From Desulfocarbo indianensis (lineage in GTDB: Bacteria; Desulfobacterota; Desulfarculia; Desulfarculales; Desulfarculaceae): a stretch of 64,000 nt of DNA. The stretch's first letter is position 1, and each line of letters starts with the position of its first letter. Below the pieces are notes generated by a model. It worked only from the letters and a program-made list of their open reading frames with translations, was not told the origin of the DNA and did no database searches. Location of the stretch: positions 1 through 64,000 of the forward strand of contig LBMP01000004.1 in NCBI GenBank assembly GCA_001184205.1. Direction: 5' to 3'. The position numbers and the translations under genes were made by a program. This document shows, piece by piece, positions 2,711 to 21,612 of the stretch.

Positions 2711-4063
2711 TCACTGGCGGCGGCGGCGGTAGTAATGGCGCTCCAGGCGCTCCACCGGGGTATTCGTGATGGCGTAGCGGGCGAAGGTGTGCCAGTTGCG
2801 CAGGGTGTTGCGCCAGGCCCCCAGCTCTTGCCAGGCGCGGGCCGAGGAAAGGGCGGGCAGGGGCGAGATGACGATGCGGCCCCGGCGGCGGGCCCGGCGG
2901 ACCAGCTCCACGTCCTCCATGAGCGCCAAATCCGGCACGCCGCCTATCCGCTCCAGGGCGGCGGATTCAAGAAATATGGCCTGGTCGCCGTAAGGCATCT
3001 GGGCCCAGCGGGAACGCAGGCCCACCGTGATCTCTATGAGGCGCAGGCTCGCGCCCGGCGCGTTCAGCTTGAAGCGGAAGGCCCCCGCCGCCACTCCAGG
3101 CAGGGCGCAGATCCGGCGGACCTCGCTGTCCCATCCCGGCGCCAGGCGGGTGTCGGCGTGCAGGAACAATACGTATTGGCCAGCGGCTATTTCCGCGCCG
3201 GCTCTCAACTGGGGCCCTCTGCCCGGCGGGGTGCAGAGCACGCGGCAGCCCAGCCGCCTGGCCAAGTCGGCGCTGCCGTCGCGGCTGCCGCCATCCACCA
3301 GGATGGTCTCGAAATCCCGGCCGCCGGACAGGCTGCGCAGGGTGGCGGCAAGATTGGCTTCTTCGTTGAGGCAGGGGATCACCACGCTGATCAGGCCGGG
3401 CCGGTTTTCCCTGGGCGGCGCTTGGCTGGCTTGCCATTCGGCGAGATCGTCCGGCGTGTCCACGTCCCGGCGGGCGGGCAGGAGTTCGTGCCCGAGGCCG
3501 GCCGCCTGGATTGAGGCCAGGGTTTGGGCCAGGACCTGATCGCCGCCCCAGGAGACGCCGCGAAAAAGGGAAGGCGCCGGCCGGCTGAGGCCGATGAGGT
3601 AATACCCGCCGTCCAGGGTGGGGCCCAGCACGACTTCCTTCCGGCTTAGGAGCAGCAGGGCGTTTTCCAGGAGGCGGTCGTCCAGGCCGGGGATGTCGCA
3701 GCCCACCAACACCACCCGGCTGGCTCCCTGCTCCAGGGCCTGGTTCAGGGCCCACCACAGGCGGTCGCCCAGGTCGCCCGAACCTTGCGGATGATATAGC
3801 AGGTCGCGCCCCAGCCAGGCGGCGAAGGCTTCGGCATCGCCGCCCTCATAGCGGACCTCCAGCTCAAGGGGACGCCTGCGCCGCAGCCGCCTGGCCCAAG
3901 CCACGGCGCGCTGGGTCATGCGGCGGTGCAAATCCGCGGCGCCGGCCGGCCCCAGGGCCGGTATGAGGCGGGTCTTGCAACTGCCCGGCCTGGGCCAGCG
4001 GGTGAAGAGTATGAGGCGCTCCTTAATGGGGCCCTGGTTATGGGGAGGCCGGTCCCGCGTCAT
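2711..4063 (-). CDS. Fusion of rSAM/selenodomain-associated transferase 1 (DUF2064) and transferase 2 (GT2 glycosyltransferase)
   Basis: A 450-residue two-domain protein. Residues about 15-215 form a CofC/MobA-like nucleotidyltransferase fold of the DUF2064 family (TIGR04282): FTRWPRPGSCKTRL, VVLVGCDIPGL, GPTLDGGYYLIGL. Residues about 223-430 are a GT-A family 2 glycosyltransferase (TIGR04283): SVVIPCLNEEANL, ILVDGGSRDGS, FLHADTRL with the DxD-type metal site, PYGDQAIF, EDVELVRRAR. Both families are named for genomic association with the ArsS-type radical SAM protein, whose gene lies 2.3 kb upstream in the same direction; here they are one polypeptide. A role in building or modifying the sugar part of an arsenosugar-like product is inference. 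It follows the flavoprotein gene by 16 bases. Confidence 0.85.
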   Translation of the reverse strand: MTRDRPPHNQGPIKERLILFTRWPRPGSCKTRLIPALGPAGAADLHRRMTQRAVAWARRLRRRRPLELEVRYEGGDAEAFAAWLGRDLLYHPQGSGDLGDRLWWALNQALEQGASRVVLVGCDIPGLDDRLLENALLLLSRKEVVLGPTLDGGYYLIGLSRPAPSLFRGVSWGGDQVLAQTLASIQAAGLGHELLPARRDVDTPDDLAEWQASQAPPRENRPGLISVVIPCLNEEANLAATLRSLSGGRDFETILVDGGSRDGSADLARRLGCRVLCTPPGRGPQLRAGAEIAAGQYVLFLHADTRLAPGWDSEVRRICALPGVAAGAFRFKLNAPGASLRLIEITVGLRSRWAQMPYGDQAIFLESAALERIGGVPDLALMEDVELVRRARRRGRIVISPLPALSSARAWQELGAWRNTLRNWHTFARYAITNTPVERLERHYYRRRRQ

Positions 4064-4079: not shown

Positions 4080-5582
4080 TCATCGCCGCCAGGCCAGCCA
4101 GCGTTGCATCCATTTTTGCACGGTGGGGGTCAGCCGGGTCCGGTTGTAGGCATCGCCGGCCCTTTTCAGGGCCTCGGCCTGGGTGGGATAGGGATGGATG
4201 ATGGAAGCCAGGGTTTTCAGGCCCACTCCTCCGGCCATGGCCACCGTCACCTCGGAGATCATTTCGCCGGCGTGGGGGGCTACGATGGTGGCTCCCAGAA
4301 TGGCGTCCCGGCCCTGCTCCACGTGGATTTTCACGAACCCCTCGGCGTCGTCGGCCAGGGCCCGGTCCAGTTCGGCGAAATCCACGCGGAAGGTTTGCGG
4401 CTTTTTCCCCTGGGCTTCGATCTCGCGCGGATAAAGGCCCACGTGGGCAACCTCGGGGTCGGTATAGGTGCACCAGGGAACGATCAAGCGGCTGAGCTTG
4501 GCTGAACCGGCGAACAGGGCGTTTTGGATCACGATGCGGGCGGCGGCGTCGGCGGTGTGGGTGAATTTATGGGCCAGACAGACGTCGCCCGCCGCGAAAA
4601 TGTTCTTGTTGCTGGTGCGGAGCTGGTCATCGACCAAGACGCCGCGCTTGGGGTCGAACTCCACGCCGGCCTCTTGCAGCCCCAAGCCCTGCACCCTGGG
4701 CTTCCTGCCGGCCCCCACCAGGATCTCGGCGGCCTCGATGCGCTCCTCGCCGTTCGGGGTTTGCAAATAGAGCGCCTTGCGCCCGTTTTCAAAAGCCACC
4801 CGGTTGACGCCGGTTTCCAGGCGCAAATCCAGGCCGTCCCGCACCAGGGCCTGGGCCACCAGTTGCGCCGCCTCCGGGTCTTCCCGGGTCATTATTTGGC
4901 CGGAGCGGCCCACCATGACCACCCGGCTGCCGAAGCGCTGAAAGGCCTGAGCCAGTTCGCAGCCGATGGGGCCGGTGCCCAGCACGGCCAGGCTCGCGGG
5001 CAGCTCGGCCAGGTCGAAGACGGTCTCGTTGGTCAGGTAGCCGGTTTCCTTCAGGCCCTGGAAAGGCAGGCCGCCGGGGCTGGAGCCGGTGGCCACCACC
5101 GCCTTGGCGAATTGCAAGGTTTTGCCGTCCACCTGCAAGGCGTCGGGGCCAATGAACCGGCCGGTTCCCAGGTATACGTCCACGCCCAGTTCCAGGAAGC
5201 GCGCCGCCGAGTCGTGGGCGCTGATTTGGGCGCGGATGCGCCGCATGCGCTCCATGACCGCCGGGAAGTCCACCGCGACCCCGCCTGCGGTTTTCAGGCC
5301 CAGGCTCTCGGCCCGTGCGATTTCGCCCACGGCCCGGGCCGAACGCAAAAGCGCCTTGCTGGGAACGCAGCCCAGGTTGAGGCAATCCCCGCCCAGGAAA
5401 CGCCGCTCCACCAGGGCCACCTTGGCGCCGAGCCCCGCCGCCCCGGCCGCGCAAACCAGACCGGCGGTGCCGGCGCCCAGCACCACCAGGTTGTAGCGCC
5501 CCTGGGGGGAGGGGTTGACCCATGGCTCTGGGCGCACGTTGGCCAAGAGCTTTTGGTCATGGCGGCTGTCCGGACGGGTCAT
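4080..5582 (-). CDS. Mercuric-reductase-like FAD-dependent pyridine nucleotide-disulfide oxidoreductase
   Basis: A 500-residue class I flavoprotein disulfide reductase. The FAD-binding GAGTAGLVCAAG is at 36-47. The redox-active GGDCLNLGCVPSK (Cys67/Cys72) follows, then an NAD(P)H-binding GTGPIGCELA and a second FAD segment FAAGDVCLAHKFTH. The C-terminal interface motif is HPYPTQAEALK. It lacks the N-terminal metal-binding domain and C-terminal vicinal cysteine pair of true MerA, so mercury reduction is unlikely; it belongs to the MerA/lipoamide-dehydrogenase-like proteins often found beside TVP38 membrane proteins. In this cluster it could supply electrons for arsenic, selenium or thiol chemistry, but the substrate is unknown. 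Confidence 0.85.
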   Translation of the reverse strand: MTRPDSRHDQKLLANVRPEPWVNPSPQGRYNLVVLGAGTAGLVCAAGAAGLGAKVALVERRFLGGDCLNLGCVPSKALLRSARAVGEIARAESLGLKTAGGVAVDFPAVMERMRRIRAQISAHDSAARFLELGVDVYLGTGRFIGPDALQVDGKTLQFAKAVVATGSSPGGLPFQGLKETGYLTNETVFDLAELPASLAVLGTGPIGCELAQAFQRFGSRVVMVGRSGQIMTREDPEAAQLVAQALVRDGLDLRLETGVNRVAFENGRKALYLQTPNGEERIEAAEILVGAGRKPRVQGLGLQEAGVEFDPKRGVLVDDQLRTSNKNIFAAGDVCLAHKFTHTADAAARIVIQNALFAGSAKLSRLIVPWCTYTDPEVAHVGLYPREIEAQGKKPQTFRVDFAELDRALADDAEGFVKIHVEQGRDAILGATIVAPHAGEMISEVTVAMAGGVGLKTLASIIHPYPTQAEALKRAGDAYNRTRLTPTVQKWMQRWLAWRR

Positions 5583-5607: not shown

Positions 5608-6315
5608 TTATTCGTCTTCCCGCAGGCGCTGGCGGGCCTTTTTGATGATGAAGAAAAGCAGCACGGCCATGGCCGCCACCACCGCCAGCAAGGCCCAGGG
5701 CACGCGGCCTTCCTTGATGCCCGTGAAAATGGCGTCGAAACCGGCCACGTATAGGATGGTGCCCGGCAGCATGCAAATCCAGGAATATAAAAGATAGGTC
5801 CAAAAAGGGACCTTGGTGAGGCCGAAGCCGAAGTTGAGCAGGTTGAAGGGGAAAATCGGCACCAGCCTGCTTATGGCCACCACGATGGCGCCCTGACGCT
5901 CCACCATGTGGTCCAGCTTTTGGAAACGCTGGTTGCCGGCCAGCCACGACTCCACGCTGGAGCGGGCGAAATAGCGCGCCGCCAGAAAAGCCAGGCCGGC
6001 CCCCAGGGTGGAGCCGATGCTCACGGTGATTATGCCCACCAGCGCGCCGAACAGGCCGCCGGCCACGGCGGAAAGCGCCACGCCGGGCAAGGCGGCCAGG
6101 GTGGCGCCGGCGTAGATGAGCACGAAGGCCACCGGTCCCCAAACGCCCAGGCCGTGTATCCAATCGCGCAGGGATTGTATCTTTTGGCCCGCGTCGAACA
6201 GGTAGGCCAGAATCATCACCGCGGCCACCGCGGCCAAAAGGACTAGGGGACGCCAGGGTATCCCCTTGGGCTTGGCCGGAGGGGGGCTGGCGGGGTCTTG
6301 CGTGGTTTGGTTCAT
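5608..6315 (-). CDS. TVP38/TMEM64 (DedA-like) membrane protein
   Basis: A 235-residue integral membrane protein with about five to six hydrophobic segments and the VTT/SNARE-associated domain. Diagnostic pieces are AALPGVALSAVAGGLFG, the GSTLGAGLAFLAARYFAR loop, RLVPIFPFNLLNFGFG and WICMLPGTILYVAG. Members are thought to be lipid scramblase-like or proton-coupled transporters; the role here is unknown. The ATG at 6315 has GAGGA about 5 bases upstream. The frame remains open far upstream across arsS, but that part is low-complexity antiparallel-frame sequence and not part of the protein. It sits between arsS and the flavoprotein gene, which is a recurrent pairing. Confidence 0.88.
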   Translation of the reverse strand: MNQTTQDPASPPPAKPKGIPWRPLVLLAAVAAVMILAYLFDAGQKIQSLRDWIHGLGVWGPVAFVLIYAGATLAALPGVALSAVAGGLFGALVGIITVSIGSTLGAGLAFLAARYFARSSVESWLAGNQRFQKLDHMVERQGAIVVAISRLVPIFPFNLLNFGFGLTKVPFWTYLLYSWICMLPGTILYVAGFDAIFTGIKEGRVPWALLAVVAAMAVLLFFIIKKARQRLREDE

Positions 6316-6366: not shown

Positions 6367-6398
6367 GCCTGGACTCAGGCCGCGATGGCGCCGCCTCA
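6367..6398 (-). promoter_or_regulatory. Candidate bacterial SECIS element at the arsS UGA codon
   Basis: Counting on the minus strand, the UGA (6398-6396) is followed 20 bases later by a hairpin: GCCTG (6380-6376), loop AGTC (6375-6372), CAGGC (6371-6367). The spacing to the apical loop and a small loop containing G next to U fit the loose rules known for bacterial SECIS elements, which recruit SelB. The stem is short (5 bp plus a possible G-U). The final stop codon of arsS (6377-6375) overlaps the loop. Confidence 0.55.
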
Positions 6399-7328
6399 GG
6401 TGAAGCCCGAGCCCGCCGTGCAGGTAAAACAATGCTCGCCCAGGGCAATGGGCTCGCCGGCCTTGGGCGGCGCGGAGAGTTCGTTCACGTGGGTCCTGCG
6501 GCCCCCCAGGGGCAGGCCGGCGGCCAGATTGAAATCGCAATCGTACAGGTAACCGTCCCAGGCCACCGAAACCTGGCGGCGGCACATGAGGCATTCCACC
6601 GCGCAGCTGTTGAAAGAGTCGATCAGCTTTTCCAGATAAGCGTCGTAATTGCCGGATTGGCGTAGCCAGCGCGCGAAACGCCCCAGGGGAACGTTGGCGA
6701 AGGTGTATAGCTGGTTGAAACGGATGTCCCAGCGGCGCTGCAACTGGGCGCGGAAGCGTTCCTCGGCCTGGCTCTGCGCCGGCGGCAGAAAGGCCCCCGC
6801 GGGGTTGGACACCAGGTTCAGTTCCAGACCGGAGCCCTCCTGCCCATAGCCCAGGGCGTTGAGTTTCCGCAGGACGTCCAGGGAGCTTGCGAACACGCCG
6901 GACCCGCGTTGGGCGTCGGTCTGGCTGGGGTTGAGCGCCGGCAGCGAAGCCACCACCACCACTTGGCTCCGGGCCAGAAGGCCCATGAGTTCTTGCTGGC
7001 CGGCCTGGCCCAGGGCGGTCAGGTTGGCCCGCAGCATGAGGCGGGGGGTGAGGGGGCGCAGGCTTTCGATCAGCAGAGGCAGGGACGGGTTCATTTCGGG
7101 CGCGCCGCCGGTTATGTCTATGCCGGTGAAATCGCCGCGCCTGGCGAACTCCACCACCTGGGCCATGGTGGCCTGGTCCATGATCTCCTTGCGCCGAGGG
7201 CCGGCCTCCAAGTGGCAATGGTTGCAGGCCTGGTTGCACAAAAGCCCCACGTTGATTTGCAGGGCCTCGCACGCCTCGCGGTCCAGGCTCAGGCGGTTTT
7301 GGCTCAGCATGCCGGCGAAGGTTTGCAT
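6375..7328 (-). CDS. arsS: Radical SAM/selenodomain protein ArsS, probable selenoprotein (UGA at 6398-6396 read as Sec)
   Basis: A 317-residue protein if the in-frame UGA is decoded as selenocysteine at position 311. The radical SAM [4Fe-4S] motif is CNQACNHC (Cys31, Cys35, Cys38), with DITGGAPEMNP as the SAM-binding GGE-like segment. A Cys-rich C-terminal part contains CAVECLMC and YDCDFN, ending HCFTCTAGSGFT-U-GGAIAA before a second TGA. The family (TIGR04167, arsenosugar-type ArsS) ends in a CTAGxGSS(C/U)xG tail. Stopping at the first UGA would cut exactly before its Cys/Sec, while the codons after the UGA continue the family tail as GGAI. ArsS is implicated in transferring a 5'-deoxyadenosyl group to a methylated arsenical. 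The transferases, flavoprotein, TVP38 protein and peroxidase-like protein are co-directional; no arsM is in view. Confidence 0.85.
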
Positions 7329-7344: not shown

Positions 7345-7677
7345 TTACATGGACAGCTTTGCGGCCAGCCGCCGCATCTGCATGCCGTGCACCAGGGCGG
7401 CGCCGCCCTTGATGGCGCAGGCCACGTGCACGGCCTCGGTCATCTCGCCTAGGTTGGAGCCCTTTTCCAGGCAGGCCTGGGTGTAGGCTTCTATGCAATA
7501 GGGGCACTGCACGGCGTGGGCCACGGCCAGGGCGATCAGCGCCTTTTCGCGGGCAGTGAGTTCGCCCTCCTGGAACACCTCTCCGTAGTAATCAAAGAAC
7601 TTCTTGGCCAACTCGGGAGCTTCGCTGCCGATTTCGCCGAAGTTCAGCAGATCCTTGCGGTCGTAGTATTCAGCCAT
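7345..7677 (-). CDS. Arsenosugar-associated peroxidase-like protein (AhpD/carboxymuconolactone decarboxylase fold)
   Basis: A 110-residue AhpD-like all-alpha protein with REKALIALAVAHAVQCPYC, the redox CPYC pair, EAYTQACLEKG, and MTEAVHVACAIKGGAALVHG. The N-terminus MAEYYDRKDLLNFGEIG matches the subgroup that occurs next to ArsS rather than general AhpD. The start ATG at 7677 has GGGAGG about 8 bases before it. It is the first gene of the minus-strand ArsS cluster, 16 bases ahead of arsS. A CxxC thiol peroxidase or reductase function is likely from the family; its specific role in arsenic or selenium metabolism is unproven. Confidence 0.88.
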   Translation of the reverse strand: MAEYYDRKDLLNFGEIGSEAPELAKKFFDYYGEVFQEGELTAREKALIALAVAHAVQCPYCIEAYTQACLEKGSNLGEMTEAVHVACAIKGGAALVHGMQMRRLAAKLSM

Positions 7678-7734
7678 GAGCGGGCCTCCCAAACGGCGTG
7701 AGAAAAAACGACGAATCTTATGATTAAAACAGCA

Positions 7735-7756
7735 TTTCAAATCGTCTGGCTTGAAA
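7735..7756. promoter_or_regulatory. Dyad TTTCAA-N10-TTGAAA upstream of the ArsS cluster
   Basis: An inverted repeat with arms 7735-7740 and 7751-7756 lies 58-79 bases before the first gene of the ArsS cluster, where an operator would be expected. Dyads of this general look bind small winged-helix repressors such as ArsR/SmtB, but no regulator gene is adjacent and the arms are short. The 105-base gap also holds a TAAGAT that could serve as a -10. Confidence 0.35.
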
Positions 7757-7782
7757 GCCGGCAAGGCGACAATTAGCGTATA

Positions 7783-8553
7783 TCATTTTCCCCAGGTGTC
7801 ATCCAGCATGAGAGGCTCCACCGTGTTGTGGACTCCGGACTGAAAGGAGAACAGAACCGGGTGGGTTCCCTTGAGGAACTCCAGATAATGCAGCCAAAGG
7901 CTTAGGAGCATCTTCAGGGCCTTGCCCACGTCCTGGGCCAGGTGCTCCCGCACGCTGGAGATGAGCTGGCGCTCCTTGCCCCGGAAACGGGATTCCTCGA
8001 TCAGGTGGAACACGGCCACCAGGGCCCGGTAGAGTTCCTCGAACTCCCATAAATTGGGGTTGCGGGTCATGTCCAGTATTTCCCGCTCCCTTTCGTGCAG
8101 GATGGCGAAGACCTTGGCCAGCTTTTCGGGGTCGGGGTCCATTTGCAGCGCGTAGTCCCGCACGCCCGTTTGAGCCTTGCGGAAACGGGCGCGGTCCCAG
8201 TCGCGGTCCACCATGATCAGCTTGTCCAGGCCGTCCCGGTTCTTGACCATGTCTATCATGGCCACGTAAAAATCCACGCCCATCTGCCGGAAGTAGATGC
8301 CCAGGAAAAGGTTCAGCTTCCGCTTCTGTTCCCTGTTTGCCCGCCAGGCGAGTATCTCCTCGATGATGATGCCCAGGATCAGGGCGTGAATGGGCAGGAA
8401 CGCGAAATGGTGGATCACGTATTTCTTGATGCCTTCGATATCGCCCAGCACCAGATAATCCACCGTGTAGAACAGGGCGGAGAGAGTGATCAGCCCGGCG
8501 GCGATGGCGATTTTTTCCAGCCATATTTTTTTATTGGAGGCGATGCTCGGCAA
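7783..8553 (-). CDS. Membrane-anchored protein of unknown function
   Basis: A 256-residue protein that I do not recognise. The N-terminal third has two hydrophobic segments (about 14-36 and 46-65: KIAIAAGLITLSALFY and AFLPIHALILGIIIEEIL). The rest is a soluble, charged, mostly helical domain with conserved-looking stretches FLGIYFRQMGVDFY, VDRDWDRARFRKAQ, ILHEREREILDMTRNP and FHLIEESRFRGKE. Spacing of charged residues suggests a helical bundle facing the cytoplasm. It is in the same direction as the ArsS cluster, ending 106 bases before it, but nothing links it functionally. It has codon usage like its neighbours and looks like a genuine gene. Confidence 0.7.
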   Translation of the reverse strand: MPSIASNKKIWLEKIAIAAGLITLSALFYTVDYLVLGDIEGIKKYVIHHFAFLPIHALILGIIIEEILAWRANREQKRKLNLFLGIYFRQMGVDFYVAMIDMVKNRDGLDKLIMVDRDWDRARFRKAQTGVRDYALQMDPDPEKLAKVFAILHEREREILDMTRNPNLWEFEELYRALVAVFHLIEESRFRGKERQLISSVREHLAQDVGKALKMLLSLWLHYLEFLKGTHPVLFSFQSGVHNTVEPLMLDDTWGK

Positions 8554-14872: not shown

Positions 14873-14973
14873 TTATCCCGCCTTTTGGGAGGCGCGGCCT
14901 GGCAAGCGGCCCCTCCGATGGGTTAGACTAAACCGTCGGGTTGCATCGGCCCCCAAGCCAATCGGGAGAAACC

Positions 14974-15609
14974 ATGGTCACCCTGTCCGCCATTGGAGCC
15001 AAGGAACGGGAACTCATCTTGGACAATCTCGCGCTTTTGGCCCGTCTGTTTTGGGGGCCGGACGAGTCCCTTTGCCAGGACCTTTGCGAAGAGGGCTGCC
15101 GCGGCTTCAGCGAATTGGGCCCCCTGCTTTCGCCTCCCGGCCCGGCCGCGGCGCGCGATCTCGAAGAAGCCCTGGCCGGCTTCGCTGACTCATCCCAGCT
15201 CCGCGACCACATGGAGACGGCCTACGTGCGCTTTTTCGTCAGCCGCCAGGGCGGCGTGACCGCGCCCCTGTATCATTCCTGCTATCTGGGCGACGGGCTT
15301 CTCATGGGGCCGCCGGCCCAGGAAATGGCGCGCCGCCTGGAAGCCGCCGGCCTCGGCCTGGAGGAAGGCTCCTCGGAGCCGCCCGATCATCTCGCCGTGG
15401 AGCTGGAGTATCTCATCCTCCTCCTGGAAGAGGGCTGGGCCCATGACGACCCCGCTCTTCTGGCCGAGGCCGCCGAATTCGCCGGCGGCTTCATGCTGCC
15501 CTGGGTGGAGGCTTTTCTGGCCCGGCTCTCCAGCGAGGCCGGCCCGCGCCTCTACCCGGCGGCCGCCGAGTTTTTAACGGCGCTGCTGGCCCGTCTGGGC
15601 CGCTTTTAG
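14974..15609 (+). CDS. TorD/DmsD-family molybdoenzyme chaperone
   Basis: A 211-residue, all-helical, acidic protein. It has the family pattern of a central YVRFFVSRQGG followed by APLYHSCY and then EPPDHLAVELEYLILLLEEG, the EPxDH signature of TorD-like chaperones. These proteins bind the Tat signal and the apo form of molybdopterin oxidoreductases so that cofactor insertion precedes export. The obvious client is the Tat-dependent molybdoenzyme encoded at 19414-21612, whose operon runs on the other strand. The ATG at 14974 follows GGGAG by 6 bases. The gene is divergent from the GAFTGA-less regulator, 101 bases away. Confidence 0.88.
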   Translation: MVTLSAIGAKERELILDNLALLARLFWGPDESLCQDLCEEGCRGFSELGPLLSPPGPAAARDLEEALAGFADSSQLRDHMETAYVRFFVSRQGGVTAPLYHSCYLGDGLLMGPPAQEMARRLEAAGLGLEEGSSEPPDHLAVELEYLILLLEEGWAHDDPALLAEAAEFAGGFMLPWVEAFLARLSSEAGPRLYPAAAEFLTALLARLGRF

Positions 15610-15621
15610 CCCGAGCCCGGT

Positions 15622-16620
15622 TTAGGGCGCGGCCGTGGCCACCGCCGCCTTGATCTGGCCCAGCACCTTGCCGATATCATTGATGTGCCCCGGCAGAATG
15701 CGCAGAATCTTCAGCCGGCCATCCTGGCCCCGCCCCAGCACGTAGGCCGTGGGCAGGTCGGGCTCGCCCAGACAGCGGAACACTTCCTTGTCCTGGTCGG
15801 CGAACAAGGGGAAGCGCACCCCTTCGCGCAGGCGGAAGTTCCTCACCTCGCGCAGCAGGCTTCCCACCCCCAGGCCCAGCATCTTGAAGTGACGCCGCAG
15901 GAACGGGTCCGCCTCGATCATGGCGAAAAGCTGGTTGTAGCTGGCCACCTCGCGCAGGCAGCCGTAGCAAAGCTGGTGATAAAGCTCCACGAACAAAAAG
16001 TCCGCCTTGACTTCGCTCAGCGCGAAGGCCTTAAGCCCGGCGGGCAGGCCCAAATAGGCGCGGTCGTCCTCGCCGCCCAGCACCACCAGCCGGCAGGAAG
16101 GGAAGTAATCCCCCAAGCCCGGTCCGGCCGGCTCCTGGCTGAGGGGCTGCCCCGTGTGCTCCAGCCAGCCGTGCCAGCCGCCGGCGAAGCGGTACACCTT
16201 GGCATAGCCCTGCTGAACGGCCCATTTGGCGGCGATGCCGCTACGCAGGCATTTGAAGCTGCGGCAGTACACCACGATCCGCCTGGACTTGTCCGGCCCC
16301 ACCAGATCGGCCAGGGCTCGGGCCTTTGCCGGCTTGAGGCTCAGGCGGTCGCCCAGGTGGAACTCCAGATTCTTGGAGCCGGGAATGTGGCCGCGCTGGT
16401 ATTCGTAATCGGGCCGCACGTCCAGGAGCAGGAGGCCGTCGCCGGCCTTCATGAGTTCGGCCAACTGCGCGGCGCTGATCAATCGGTAGCCATCGGCCTT
16501 GGCCTCCTCGGCCGCCCGCTGCCACCACTCGGGTTCAGCGCCGGCCAGGGCCGGCCACGGCTGCCAGGCGGCCAGCAGGCAAAGCGCCAGTAACCAGGCA
16601 AGCGGATGGGATGGGCGCAC
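15622..16620 (-). CDS. Exported rhodanese-thioredoxin-like two-domain protein
   Basis: A 332-residue protein with an N-terminal signal peptide (about 1-27). Residues about 45-155 form a rhodanese domain with LLLLDVRPDYEYQRGHIPGS and an active loop VYCRSFKCLRSG (Cys119, Cys124). Residues about 175-325 look like an AhpC/TSA thioredoxin fold with LYHQLCYGCLREV, a CxxC pair (Cys218/Cys221), and FPLFADQDKEVFRCLG. It probably handles sulfane sulfur or thiol exchange in the periplasm. The start is GTG at 16620 with a strong AAAGGAGG 7 bases upstream. It is the last gene of the molybdoenzyme operon, after a 95-base gap containing a GC-rich hairpin. Confidence 0.85.
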   Translation of the reverse strand: MRPSHPLAWLLALCLLAAWQPWPALAGAEPEWWQRAAEEAKADGYRLISAAQLAELMKAGDGLLLLDVRPDYEYQRGHIPGSKNLEFHLGDRLSLKPAKARALADLVGPDKSRRIVVYCRSFKCLRSGIAAKWAVQQGYAKVYRFAGGWHGWLEHTGQPLSQEPAGPGLGDYFPSCRLVVLGGEDDRAYLGLPAGLKAFALSEVKADFLFVELYHQLCYGCLREVASYNQLFAMIEADPFLRRHFKMLGLGVGSLLREVRNFRLREGVRFPLFADQDKEVFRCLGEPDLPTAYVLGRGQDGRLKILRILPGHINDIGKVLGQIKAAVATAAP

Positions 16621-16643
16621 GCGAAGCCTCCTTTAAGCGGCGG

Positions 16644-16682
16644 GAGCGGCCGGCCCGCCGGATAGCCGGGGGCGGGCCGCTC
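16644..16682. other. Intercistronic GC-rich hairpin
   Basis: GGCCCGCC and GGCGGGCC plus GAGC/GCTC outer arms form an imperfect stem with a four-base bulge, between the triple rhodanese gene and the rhodanese-thioredoxin gene. No T-run follows on the minus strand, so it is more likely an mRNA processing or stability element, or a weak attenuator, than a full terminator. Confidence 0.55.
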
Positions 16683-16715
16683 CTCATTCCCATGGGGCCC
16701 TTTGGCCTGGTCAGG

Positions 16716-17909
16716 CTACTTGGGCTTGGTCACCTGGCAAGAACCGTCCTTGTTGAAGGTGATCTCGCCGTCGACGTAGTACACGTCGGTCATCTCGGGC
16801 TTCTGATCCTTGATCATGTAATAGGCCTCGCCGGAGCGGGCGCCGGTGCCGCACACGAAGATGATGGGCTGGTCGGCGGGCAGCTTGTCCAGGTTCTTTT
16901 CCAGCTCGCCCACCGGGATATTCACCGAGCCCTTGATGCTGCCGGTCTTGAACTCGCCGGCGTCGCGCACGTCCACCAGATAGGCCTTGGGGCCCTTGCC
17001 GGCCGCGATCTGCTTGAATACCTCCATGTCCACCGAGCCTTCTTCCTGGCCGGGCTTCAGGCTGCCCTTTTTGCCGGCGGGCTTGGCGGCAGGCGCGGCG
17101 GCCATGGCGGAGCCGGCGCCGTAGGCCTTGGTCCAGGCCGGATAGCCCTCGGCGAAAACCTTGGCGTTCTTATAGCCCAGCTTTTCGGACATGAAGGCGG
17201 CCTTGTGGGAAAGCGGGCAGGCCAGGCCGCCGCAGTAGAACACCAGCAGGGCGTTCTTGTCGGCCGGCAACAGGCCCTTCATCTTGTCGAAGTTGCTGGT
17301 TGGCAGGCTGATGGAGCCGGGGATGTGGCCCTTGTCGTATTTGGTGATCTTGGGCCGGGAGTCCACGATCAGGCCCAGTTTCTTGCCGTCGGCCACTTGC
17401 TTGACAAAGGCCGCGTCCACGATGGCGTGGAACTGCTTGAACTTGGGCTCGGCCTTTTTGGCGGCGTCAGCCGCGGTGGGGCCGGGGCCGTAGGTCTTGG
17501 CCCACAGGGGATAGCCCTCGGGGAAGACCTTGGCGTTGGTGTAGCCCAGCTTTTCGGCCTTGTAGGCGCTCTTGTGGGAGAGGGAGCATTTCACGCCCTC
17601 GCAATAATAAACGATGAGCGCGTTCTTGTCCTTGGGCAGCAGGTTGAGGTTTTTATCGAACTGGCTGTCCGAGATGTTGATGGCGCCGGGGATGTGGCCC
17701 TTGTCGTATTTCTTGGCCTTGGGCCTGGCGTCGATGAGCAGGCCCTTGGTCTTGCCGTCCACCATGTCCTTTACAAAGGCGAGGTCCACCAGGGTGTGGA
17801 ATTGTTTGAAGGCGGGTTTGGCCTCTTCGGCGGCCAGGGCCGCGCTGGCGCCCAAGAGCGCCAGGGCCAGGACCAAAGCCAGGGCCCAAGTCTTCTGCAT
17901 GGGTTTCAT
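16716..17909 (-). CDS. Periplasmic triple-rhodanese sulfurtransferase
   Basis: A 397-residue protein with a signal peptide (about 1-27) and three rhodanese domains at about 35-140, 157-263 and 290-390. Each has an active-site cysteine: Cys103 (YYCEGVKCSLSHKS), Cys226 (FYCGGLACPLSHKA) and Cys353 (FVCGTGARSG). Domains 1 and 2 are close copies (KQFHxxVDxAFVK, YDKGHIPG, EKLGYxNAKVFxEGYP), pointing to internal duplication, while domain 3 is a more ordinary single-domain rhodanese. The first two loops have an extra Cys five residues after the nucleophile. It probably carries sulfane sulfur to or from the molybdoenzyme encoded upstream; it is 16 bases downstream of the cytochrome b gene. Confidence 0.9.
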   Translation of the reverse strand: MKPMQKTWALALVLALALLGASAALAAEEAKPAFKQFHTLVDLAFVKDMVDGKTKGLLIDARPKAKKYDKGHIPGAINISDSQFDKNLNLLPKDKNALIVYYCEGVKCSLSHKSAYKAEKLGYTNAKVFPEGYPLWAKTYGPGPTAADAAKKAEPKFKQFHAIVDAAFVKQVADGKKLGLIVDSRPKITKYDKGHIPGSISLPTSNFDKMKGLLPADKNALLVFYCGGLACPLSHKAAFMSEKLGYKNAKVFAEGYPAWTKAYGAGSAMAAAPAAKPAGKKGSLKPGQEEGSVDMEVFKQIAAGKGPKAYLVDVRDAGEFKTGSIKGSVNIPVGELEKNLDKLPADQPIIFVCGTGARSGEAYYMIKDQKPEMTDVYYVDGEITFNKDGSCQVTKPK

Positions 17910-17925
17910 TTGCTCCTCCGTGGTT

Positions 17926-18669
17926 CTATTGGTCAGAAGTTTTAATGGCGACTTCGTCGTACCAAAGCTTGTGGTGATGCCTGGCGTATTCCTCGGGCAC
18001 CTCGCCGCTGAACATGGACCAAAAGGCCGGGCGTTCCTCTTTGGCGATGGCGGCCATGAAGATGTGCACCAGGAGTATGCCGAAGGTGACTCCGGCGGCG
18101 ATGTAATGGATGGTGATGGCCCACTGCACCCAGGCTATGTCGGCCAAGGGCGCGGTCATGAAGTATTTGCCGCGCAGCATGATGGCGCCGGTCACCGCCA
18201 GAACCAGCGCGCCCAGCAGCATGACCTGGGCGGCCACCTTCTGCCCGGCGTTGTAGTATTCCTGGTCGGGAATCTTGGCCCCCAGGCCCAGGGGCTTCAT
18301 GAAGAAGGCCATGGCCTTGTAGCCCAGGGTCATTTGCAGGTTCTTCTTGATCATCCACTCCATGTCGCGGCCGGGCTTCAGGGTGAAGACCTGGGCCAGG
18401 AAGGGCACCACGTGGCTGGACCAGTTGGCGATGATGAACACCAGCCAAACCAAAAGCCAGGTGACGGCCACCGCCAGATGGATGATCAAAAGTCCGCCGC
18501 CGCCGAACACCGCGCGCAGGGCGTTGGGGTACCACTGGCCCAGGGGCTGCAACTGGGGGTTCTGGATGAGCCCCAGGCCGGTGAAGAGCAGGATGAACCA
18601 GCAGGCCGCGTTGAACCAGTGAATGAAAATGCCGCCCTTGGTGTGGCGGAGGATCATGCGCTTATTCAT
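17926..18669 (-). CDS. Cytochrome b membrane subunit (FdnI/PhsC-like)
   Basis: A 247-residue integral membrane protein with four main helices and histidines placed as in b-type di-haem subunits of formate dehydrogenase and thiosulfate reductase: GGIFIHWFNAACW, LLIIHLAVAVTWLL, and WAITIHYIAAGVTF plus ILLVHIFMA. It would exchange electrons between the quinone pool and the FeS subunit. It is not NrfD-like, so the complex resembles Salmonella PhsABC more than Wolinella PsrABC. The start ATG at 18669 has GAGGAGG 8 bases upstream and overlaps the end of the FeS gene by eight bases; an upstream in-frame start would deepen the overlap without adding family sequence. Confidence 0.88.
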   Translation of the reverse strand: MNKRMILRHTKGGIFIHWFNAACWFILLFTGLGLIQNPQLQPLGQWYPNALRAVFGGGGLLIIHLAVAVTWLLVWLVFIIANWSSHVVPFLAQVFTLKPGRDMEWMIKKNLQMTLGYKAMAFFMKPLGLGAKIPDQEYYNAGQKVAAQVMLLGALVLAVTGAIMLRGKYFMTAPLADIAWVQWAITIHYIAAGVTFGILLVHIFMAAIAKEERPAFWSMFSGEVPEEYARHHHKLWYDEVAIKTSDQ

Positions 18670-19414
18670 GGCCAGCCTCCTCGTGCGCGCCGCCATCGGC
18701 CGGGGGGGCGTCTTTGGGCATGGCCAGCTGCTTGCCCAGCATGGCCAGGACGCCCAGGCCGGAAAGCCCCACTACCGCCTTGACCACCGGATCGGCCAGC
18801 CGGCGCCAGAAGTCGAAGGCCTCCGGCATCCTGGCCTGCACGGTCCAATTGGTGGGGCCTGGTTCGCCCAGGTAATAAATATTGGGGTCGGTCCTGGTTT
18901 GCTCGTTGGCCACCCGCACGGCCCGGTTGGCCTTCAGGAGCTTGGCCACTTCGCTGTTGGCATCGTTCAGGTCGCCGAACTTGCGGGACTTGGTGGGGCA
19001 GGTGCTCACGCAGGCCGGCTCCAGGCCGAATTTGCGGCGCTCGGCGCAGAAATCGCATTTGTCGGCCACGCCCAAGTCGGTGTTCTTGAAGCGCGCGCCA
19101 TAGGGGCAGGCGGCCAGGCATTGGCCGCAACCGATGCACAGGGTGCGGTTGATGACCACGGTGCCGTCGGCCTGGTTCTTATAGGTGGCGCCGGTGGGGC
19201 AGGCCTCCACGCAGGTGGGCTTGTCGCATTGCATGCAATTGCCCGGCTGAAACACCACCGGCGAGCTGGCCCGGCGCTCCGGGTCGGCGCCCTTGATCCA
19301 GTTGCGCCATTTGCCGTCGGGCACGTTGTTGGCCACCTTGCAGGCGGCCAGGCAGCCCTTGCAGTCCAGGCAGGTGGGAGCGTCGATAACCATGGCCAGT
19401 TTTTGGTTCGCCAT
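18662..19414 (-). CDS. Four-cluster ferredoxin-type electron transfer subunit (PhsB/PsrB-like)
   Basis: A 250-residue protein with four cysteine groups for [4Fe-4S] clusters: CLDCKGCLAAC (15-25), CMQCDKPTCVEAC, CIGCGQCLAAC, and CDFCAERRKFG followed by CVSTC. A C-terminal hydrophobic stretch (about 210-232, VVKAVVGLSGLGVLAML) may anchor it, which is common in periplasm-facing complexes. It relays electrons between the cytochrome b subunit and the molybdopterin subunit. It has no Tat signal and would be exported with the catalytic subunit. Its ATG shares one base with the stop codon of the catalytic subunit gene (TGATG). Confidence 0.92.
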   Translation of the reverse strand: MANQKLAMVIDAPTCLDCKGCLAACKVANNVPDGKWRNWIKGADPERRASSPVVFQPGNCMQCDKPTCVEACPTGATYKNQADGTVVINRTLCIGCGQCLAACPYGARFKNTDLGVADKCDFCAERRKFGLEPACVSTCPTKSRKFGDLNDANSEVAKLLKANRAVRVANEQTRTDPNIYYLGEPGPTNWTVQARMPEAFDFWRRLADPVVKAVVGLSGLGVLAMLGKQLAMPKDAPPADGGAHEEAGHE

Positions 19415-21612
19415 CAGGCCGCCTCCTTGCTGACGGTGACAAAGGTCTCATGCATGGCCATGTTGCCGCTTATCTGATCGAAGTCGTCCACCAGCACCTG
19501 GGCGATGCAGGCGCCCCGGCCGTGGGCGGCCAGCTGCGGGGAGAGAACCCCGAAGCCGGTTTCCATGTACACCGTGTCCGGCCTGGTCATGTCGGTCACC
19601 TTGGCCTGAATCCATTGCTTACCCGCCGGACTGGCAACCTTGACCCAGTCGCCGTCCTCGATACCCAGGCCCTTGGCCGCCGCCGGGTTGATCCAGAGAT
19701 GGTTGGTGGGCTGAAACTCCATGAGCAGGGAATTGCTGGTGCTGGAGCTTTGGGTGACCACCGCGTTGCGGCCCACCACCAGGCGGAACTGATCGGCCTC
19801 CGGCTGGGCCGGCTTGCGGTAGACGGGCATGGGGTCCAGGCCCATGTCGGCGTAGCGTTGGTTGAAAAGTTCGATCTTCTGCGACTTGGTCTTGTAGATG
19901 CGGCCCTCGTACACGCCGTACAGCTTGGAGGGGTTGTAATACACCCCGTCCTTTTGCAGCGCCTCCAGGGCTCCGGGCAGGTCCTTCAGTTGGGCGTTGC
20001 GGAATTCCTCCACGCTGAAATTGAAATGTTCGCCCAGCTCCAGGCGGTTGGCCAGTTGGCGCATCACCCAGAAGACGGGCTTGGCCTCGAACATGGGCTT
20101 GACCACGGGATCGCGCATGACCACGCAGGCGCAGGCCGAGGAGCCCTGCTGAGCCGAACAGGGGTCCAGCCGCTCCAGGTAGTACTGGCTGGGCAAGACC
20201 AGATCGGCCATCCAGGCGGTGTCGCTCATGGCCACGTCCATGACCATCACGAACTCCATCTGGTCGAACATCCGCGCCGTCTTGGCCCGGTTGGCCACGG
20301 TCTGCATGGGGTTGGAGTGATAGCAGAAAAACCCCTTGACCGGATAAGGGTTGGCTTCCAGCACGGCGTCGCGGGCCAGCTTGAAGGAGCCTTCCTCCGG
20401 GAACATGAGGGTGGCCCTGCCCGCGTCCACGCGGTCGGCGGGGTTGTTCTCGTAGAAGGGCTCCTCCAGGGGGACGCCGCCCCCCAGGCCCACCATGCGG
20501 GCGGCGGTGAGGCCGCCGGGGCGGTCCCAGTTGCCCAACAGCGCGTTTACGATGGCGAACGCCCGGCGCACCTGGGTTGAATCCCGGTAATTGGAGGAAC
20601 GGCGGCCGGGGTAGATCATGGCCGCCGGCTTGGCCGCCCCCAATTCGCGGGCGATCTTCACGATGACCTCGGCCGGCACTTCGCTTTCCGTTGCGGCCCA
20701 CTCCGGGGTGTAGGGCTCCACGTGCTTGGCCAGCTGCTCCAGGCCGTAGGTCTTTTCCGCCACGAACTCCCGGTCGTAAAGGCCTTCCTTGATGAGCACG
20801 TGGGCGATGGCTAGCATCACCGCCATGTCGCTGTGGGGCTTGATGGGGTAATACTCGTGGGCCTTGGCCGCGGTCTTGGTGTAGCGCGGGTCCATGACCA
20901 CCAGCTTCATGCCCTGCTTCATGGCGGTCATCATGTCGATGGAGTCCGGCGTCACCAGGGCCTCGAAGCGGTTGGCCCCCATCATGAGGCAGTATTTGGC
21001 ATACAGCATGTCCGGGATGGGCACCTCGCCAAAGGTGTCCAGAAAGGCCCGGGTGCCGGCGATGAGGCACTGCGATTCGTGGGAAAGGGTGTTGTAGGAG
21101 CCGTAGGCCTTGGCGAAGCGGTGAATAAAAGTGGATTGCATGTCCGCGCCGGCCATGAACATGAATCCGCAGCGGGTGTATTTTTCGCCGATGGCCTTCA
21201 TTTTTTCGGCCGCCAGATCCAGGGCCTCATCCCAACCGAGGCGCTTCCATTTGCCCTCGCCGCGCGCGCCCACCCGCAAAAGGGGATACTTGAGCCGGTC
21301 GGGGTCGTATTGCTGGCGCACGCCCGCGTTGCCCTTGGCGCAGAGCATGCCGCGGGACTTGAGGAACTTGGGGTTGGGGTCCAGCTTTTGGACTTTGCCG
21401 TCCACCACCCTGGCGATGGCGCTGCACTTGTTGAAGCACATGTCGCAGACCGTGTACTTGCTCTCAAAGCCGGGCTTAAGCCTGGTGCCCGCCTGGGCCG
21501 CTCCGGGTTTGAGGGCGCTGTCCGAGCCGCCCAGGGCCGCCGCCGCGGTGGCCGCGCCGGTCAGTTTAAAGAAACCCCTGCGCGATATCTTTTGATCCAG
21601 GGAGGATGTCAT
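19414..21612 (-). CDS. Tat-exported molybdopterin oxidoreductase, thiosulfate/polysulfide reductase type (PhsA/PsrA-like)
   Basis: A 732-residue catalytic subunit with a Tat signal (SRRGFFKLTG, Arg11-Arg12). A [4Fe-4S] site is made by Cys56, Cys59, Cys63 and Cys91 (CDMCFNKC ... GMLCAKG). SHESQCLIAG puts Cys182 where the molybdenum ligand sits in PhsA/PsrA/Nap-type enzymes. The C-terminal molybdopterin-binding domain begins near 615 (LVVGRNAVVTQSSSTSN). Thiosulfate, polysulfide or tetrathionate reduction fits best because two rhodaneses are encoded downstream, but arsenate or other oxyanions cannot be excluded by sequence alone. It is second in an operon that starts with a c-type cytochrome. 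Confidence 0.9.
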   Translation of the reverse strand: MTSSLDQKISRRGFFKLTGAATAAAALGGSDSALKPGAAQAGTRLKPGFESKYTVCDMCFNKCSAIARVVDGKVQKLDPNPKFLKSRGMLCAKGNAGVRQQYDPDRLKYPLLRVGARGEGKWKRLGWDEALDLAAEKMKAIGEKYTRCGFMFMAGADMQSTFIHRFAKAYGSYNTLSHESQCLIAGTRAFLDTFGEVPIPDMLYAKYCLMMGANRFEALVTPDSIDMMTAMKQGMKLVVMDPRYTKTAAKAHEYYPIKPHSDMAVMLAIAHVLIKEGLYDREFVAEKTYGLEQLAKHVEPYTPEWAATESEVPAEVIVKIARELGAAKPAAMIYPGRRSSNYRDSTQVRRAFAIVNALLGNWDRPGGLTAARMVGLGGGVPLEEPFYENNPADRVDAGRATLMFPEEGSFKLARDAVLEANPYPVKGFFCYHSNPMQTVANRAKTARMFDQMEFVMVMDVAMSDTAWMADLVLPSQYYLERLDPCSAQQGSSACACVVMRDPVVKPMFEAKPVFWVMRQLANRLELGEHFNFSVEEFRNAQLKDLPGALEALQKDGVYYNPSKLYGVYEGRIYKTKSQKIELFNQRYADMGLDPMPVYRKPAQPEADQFRLVVGRNAVVTQSSSTSNSLLMEFQPTNHLWINPAAAKGLGIEDGDWVKVASPAGKQWIQAKVTDMTRPDTVYMETGFGVLSPQLAAHGRGACIAQVLVDDFDQISGNMAMHETFVTVSKEAA

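Follow-up and report, generated by a model that had tools for sequence, protein, structure and literature searches.

In the biosynthesis of oxo-arsenosugars, arsenic is adenosylated by the radical SAM enzyme ArsS, as described in the review PMC12159101 (citing Cheng et al. 2021). The NCBIfam model TIGR04167 (rSAM_SeCys) carries the NCBI name 'arsenosugar biosynthesis radical SAM (seleno)protein ArsS', and a 2026 review of the prokaryotic selenoproteome lists it among the selenoprotein families predicted with high confidence, as 'Radical SAM domain protein, TIGR04167, GxxU', with AAR34688.1 as representative (PMC13188914). Our literature search for ArsS by name as a selenoprotein found nothing direct. 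The review also gives a rule for bacterial SECIS elements (bSECIS), i.e. a loop of 3–9 nt, a stem of 4–16 bp, a G within the first two loop bases, a spacing of 16–37 nt and a minimum free energy of at most -7.5 kcal/mol (PMC13188914).

Here we analyzed an arsS-type gene in the window, by which we mean the whole stretch of 64,000 nucleotides studied. The locus is well supported as a new member of the catalogued selenoprotein family and, since TIGR04167 is already listed as such (PMC13188914), it is an ordinary further example; the earlier note on this DNA had likewise named several family members as selenoproteins. The window gene shares the GxxU spacing of the catalogued family (here G-F-T-U), but it comes from a further species, near Desulfarculaceae judging by named close relatives, and its SECIS is backed by covariation and by a Sec/Cys contrast. 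The features of the locus are as follows:

2711–4063, minus strand: fusion of TIGR04282 (202.9 bits) and TIGR04283 (214.0 bits), 'arsenosugar' glycosyltransferase-like families, both over cut-off
4080–5582, minus strand: FAD/pyridine-nucleotide disulphide oxidoreductase, MerA/lipoamide dehydrogenase-like (NF004991), downstream of arsS
5608–6315, minus strand: VTT-domain (DedA/TVP38-like) membrane protein (PF09335), downstream of arsS
6367–6380, minus strand: GCCUG-AGUC-CAGGC, a hairpin of bacterial SECIS type whose stem has 5 bp (6 counting a G.U pair)
6375–6377, minus strand: predicted true stop UGA, inside the hairpin, where it covers the final 2 nt of the 5' arm and loop base 1
6378–6395, minus strand: six C-terminal codons after Sec, GGAIAA, with protein-level conservation and synonymous changes in 49 Sec homologues
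6396–6398, minus strand: UGA predicted to be read as selenocysteine, residue 311, in an invariant Cys/Sec column (37 homologues), with UGA in 48 other homologues
6375–7328, minus strand: arsS-type gene (TIGR04167/DUF3641 radical SAM), 317 codons plus stop if the UGA is Sec, with profile matches
7345–7764, minus strand: AhpD-like peroxidase-related protein TIGR04169 (186.9 bits), with a CPYC motif and not Sec, just upstream of arsS

The open reading frame 7328–6396 (minus strand, ATG at 7328) closes with HCFTCTAGSGFT and then the UGA at 6396–6398, where a plain ORF caller terminates the gene. In the same frame past this UGA stand GGC GGC GCC ATC GCG GCC (GGAIAA) and the second UGA; the earlier note, which had placed the first TGA right after CTAGSGFT and these six codons before the second, was exact. 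With read-through the predicted C-terminal tail is CTAGSGFT-Sec-GGAIAA, and the TIGR04167 profile is completed (390.8 bits, positions 2–303 of 303, compared to 380.3 bits and positions 2–297 if the UGA is a stop), a gain of 10.5 bits. With read-through the match is thus full-length and above the curated equivalog cut-off of 300 bits; the protein has the family's Radical_SAM and DUF3641 domains in Pfam and the same Cys/Sec site. The C-terminal pattern CTAGxGxx(C/U)xG is present as CTAGSGFT-U-GG, in which GFT-U differs from the commoner family form GSS-C, still inside the family.

Gene neighbourhood and the arsenosugar annotation

TIGR04169 adjoins ArsS in 13 of the 14 Sec-type relatives with full loci. 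The two glycosyltransferase-like families, which in the window form one protein of 450 aa, lie side by side near ArsS in some relatives (L040, L042), and in others (L035, L036) only one of them adjoins it. Upstream of the cluster lies a 256-aa protein (7783–8553, minus strand) without NCBIfam or Pfam match, a homologue of which (46–59% identity) adjoins ArsS in L033, L035, L036 and L038. Elsewhere in the window (14941–21612) we noted genes for a TorD-like chaperone, a molybdopterin oxidoreductase related to the thiosulfate reductase PhsA and two rhodanese-type proteins that partly resemble the selenoprotein TsoB. A GC3 search of the window for other UGA-interrupted frames yielded eight candidates, none of them convincing.

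The substrate of the window ArsS is uncertain, because no ArsM-type arsenite methyltransferase over cut-off was found in the source genome (assembly completeness 98.65%), the best match to NF008823 reaching 73.3 bits where the cut-off demands 263. In a phylum sample of 395 genomes, 120 of which contain ArsS, ArsM was found in 58 of the 120 genomes with ArsS and in 110 of the 275 others, a difference that is not significant (odds ratio 1.40, P 0.15). Taken together, these two results leave the arsenosugar role as annotation here. Both would also fit a selenoprotein whose cluster makes no arsenosugars and acts on some other substrate (another metalloid, selenium or a small molecule), so that the name ArsS would mislead at this locus. 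We think this unlikely, if worth keeping in view: the neighbouring TIGR04169, TIGR04282 and TIGR04283 are families that NCBI ties to arsenosugar biosynthesis, methylated arsenic can be taken up from outside the cell, and a methyltransferase of divergent sequence could escape detection.

The in-frame UGA in homologues and the decoding machinery

Among 60 near-relative genomes (source genome included) ArsS was found in 17, and 14 of these genes contain one in-frame UGA; the other three (in G017, G042 and G059) have Cys instead. In the phylum sample, 37 of the 120 genomes with ArsS have it with a single in-frame UGA. We read the C-termini of 49 Sec genes, including the window gene, and 33 Cys genes. 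All 49 carry the UGA at exactly this site, where the other homologues have Cys. Most Sec genes end in CTAGxGFT-U-GG(A/S)I and most Cys genes in CTAGxGSS-C-xG; the ending CTAGxGSS(C/U)xG, which the earlier note had given for the family, therefore describes the Cys members well, but not the Sec members, which mostly read GFT-U. A wider scan of named genomes, taking in Desulfarculaceae, Desulfobacterales, other deltaproteobacteria and many phyla, gave 8 Sec and 71 Cys forms among 79 scored, with GFT-C forms e.g. in a Nitrospinota MAG and in Geobacter sp. OR-1.

The codons past the UGA keep their residues while varying silently. The second position is Gly in 49/49 Sec genes, with all four Gly codons in use, and the fourth is Ile in 47/49 (ATC, ATT or ATA), which argues for selection on the protein and thus for translation of these codons. 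Relatives that stop at the same UGA without conserved downstream codons, which had been named beforehand as evidence against selenocysteine, are hence not what we observed. The second stop is a UGA at codon +7 in 28 of the 49 genes and a UAG there in 10, and lies elsewhere in the rest. Beyond it we found no conserved protein in this frame across the Sec homologues, which indicates that the second stop ends translation.

The other finding named as contrary, a genome without selA, selB or selC, did not turn up either: the source assembly contains selA (605.6 bits), selB (392.9 bits) and selD (375.9 bits), the last of them interrupted by a single in-frame UGA, as well as a tRNA-Sec (75.4 bits) with the anticodon tca (UCA) according to ARAGORN. 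The UGA of selD (L026, 1501–2424, minus strand) lies at the catalytic site, AAG-U-AAK, and SelD of this genome is probably likewise a selenoprotein; the UxxK form of SelD is listed as experimentally verified (PMC13188914). Using stricter filters, and with several assemblies incomplete, we did not find tRNA-Sec in 6 of the 37 phylum-sample genomes and 6 of the 14 near-relative genomes with Sec-type ArsS (the latter being G001, G009, G014, G015, G018 and G019); assembly gaps or the strict filter may account for this. tRNA-Sec is present in sister genomes (genus g4) that lack Sec-type ArsS. As a separator of Sec-type from Cys-type genomes its presence proved uninformative, 40 of 43 tested Cys-type genomes having it as well.

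The SECIS-like hairpin

Counted from the first UGA of the window gene, the distance to the hairpin is 15 nt for the start of the stem and 20 nt for that of the loop. With its AGUC loop, 6 bp including the G.U pair, a spacing of 20 and -8.4 kcal/mol it satisfies the full bSECIS rule, the check that the earlier note had suggested; its description there, 5 bp and an AGTC loop 20 bases past the UGA, holds, with 20 nt as the start of the loop. Like the bSECIS consensus, the hairpin has a 4-nt loop with G in the first two bases and then U, positioned at 20 nt, on a stem of at least 5 bp. Unlike the consensus, it overlaps the true stop and extends into the 3' untranslated region, as is to be expected with Sec so close to the C-terminus. 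Taken alone, the window hairpin is not significant in this GC-rich window: of 82 UGAs that close a long open frame in the window, whether genuine or not, 13 satisfy the rule (the ArsS UGA is probably among them), and the predicted folding of the 43-nt stretch is no stronger than that of its shuffles (z -0.49). The weight of the evidence is comparative.

For the comparison we required a stem of at least 4 bp, a G at loop position 1 or 2 and a loop 18–23 nt after the UGA. Such a hairpin was found in 48/49 Sec genes, but only in 6/33 Cys genes; after shuffling, the respective rates were 23% and 19%. Under the full published rule the counts are 31/49 and 2/33 (shuffles: 7–9%), and the 18 Sec genes that fall short do so mostly on the energy limit. 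In 20 genes of the same geometry 95% of the pair cells pair, and the two outermost pairs show exchanges in both arms (GC, CG, AU, UA and GU). The covariation score of 0.275 (0.122 after shuffling; none of 500 shuffles as high) drops when the partner is slid; it may be inflated by the relatedness of the sequences, and the inner four pairs are nearly invariant and hence uninformative. As the hairpin persists across the Sec genes while the second stop varies in type and position, it is the hairpin and not the stop that is the conserved element. By this comparison, the hairpin clearly has the marks of a conserved recoding signal in Sec-type ArsS genes. An Rfam search of the ArsS locus gave no meaningful match.

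Taken together, the UGA of the relatives, the downstream conservation, the hairpin and the Sec machinery support the earlier reading of a probable selenoprotein, and the first UGA of the window ArsS almost certainly encodes selenocysteine. If it were an ordinary stop, ArsS would be truncated to 310 residues and the codons behind it would be remnants of an old Cys/Sec tail. A plain ORF caller does end the gene there and the window hairpin alone is within chance, but the downstream residues are kept with silent changes in 49 UGA-bearing homologues, an invariant Gly is not expected of a decaying tail, and the Sec machinery is apparently in use, given the UGA in SelD; we consider an ordinary stop very improbable. 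Hardly any probability attaches to a sequencing error, or to a Cys codon turned into UGA by point mutation: UGA is one base away from UGC and UGU, and Cys is encoded at this site in related GFT-type genes such as L038, L127 and L129, but the recurrence of the same UGA with the hairpin in 48 other homologues, while Cys versions mostly lack the hairpin, rules it out. That the second UGA is also Sec, giving a longer protein, would suit a genome where another UGA is read as Sec, but has a negligible chance in view of the relatives, whose second stop varies and whose frame beyond it is unconserved.

Proposed mechanism and the Sec/Cys contrast

We are therefore highly confident that the locus is best explained by a Sec-tailed enzyme of the ArsS family, with insertion of Sec at 6396–6398 directed by SelB and the hairpin, and termination six codons on. 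SelB-dependent insertion is suggested because all parts are present. The hairpin, with its loop from 20 nt downstream, would recruit SelB and Sec-tRNA(UCA) to the first UGA; Sec would be inserted at residue 311 and six further codons translated, and the ribosome would terminate at the second UGA, within the hairpin just melted. Judging from its family, the enzyme would then move a 5'-deoxyadenosyl group onto a trivalent arsenical.

Invariant in 37 homologues are Cys31, Cys35 and Cys38, which form the CxxxCxxC motif of the radical SAM cluster, as well as Cys249, Cys264, Cys300, Cys303 and Cys/Sec311. The predicted structure has a pLDDT of 93.9 overall, with low values (75, then 50) in the Sec-bearing tail. 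Foldseek matched the fold to the SPASM/twitch enzymes SkfB (6efn), SuiB (5v1t) and EpeE (8ai2) with E values of 4.8e-12 to 1e-8, but identity is only 12–17% and, as said, the window tail is of low model confidence. A sequence search of the PDB found no close solved relative. From the likeness to SPASM/twitch enzymes and the C-terminal Cys pattern we infer that Cys249, Cys264, Cys300 and Cys303 may hold an auxiliary Fe-S cluster, and that residue 311 (Sec here, Cys elsewhere) could be an extra reactive selenol or thiol binding or reducing the substrate or the cluster.

In a tree of 47 proteins, 14 Sec genes form one group (support 100/100) with a single Cys gene, L038, inside. This gene, from the same genus as the Sec-bearing G014 and G018, reads GFT-C-GGSI and is without a comparable hairpin; it is best read as a putative Sec-to-Cys change with loss of the hairpin signal. 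It is a rather remote speculation that the Sec-type ArsS clade without ArsM runs some radical SAM reaction other than arsenosugar formation, with the C-terminal selenol as a ligand for the substrate or a metalloid; if so, GFT-U would be the signature of this activity. For annotation, a standard gene call would drop the last seven residues of the window ArsS, among them the family's invariant Cys/Sec position. The natural contrast between Sec and Cys genes, including the reversion in L038, would be useful for probing the role of selenocysteine in this putative arsenic-adenosylating family.
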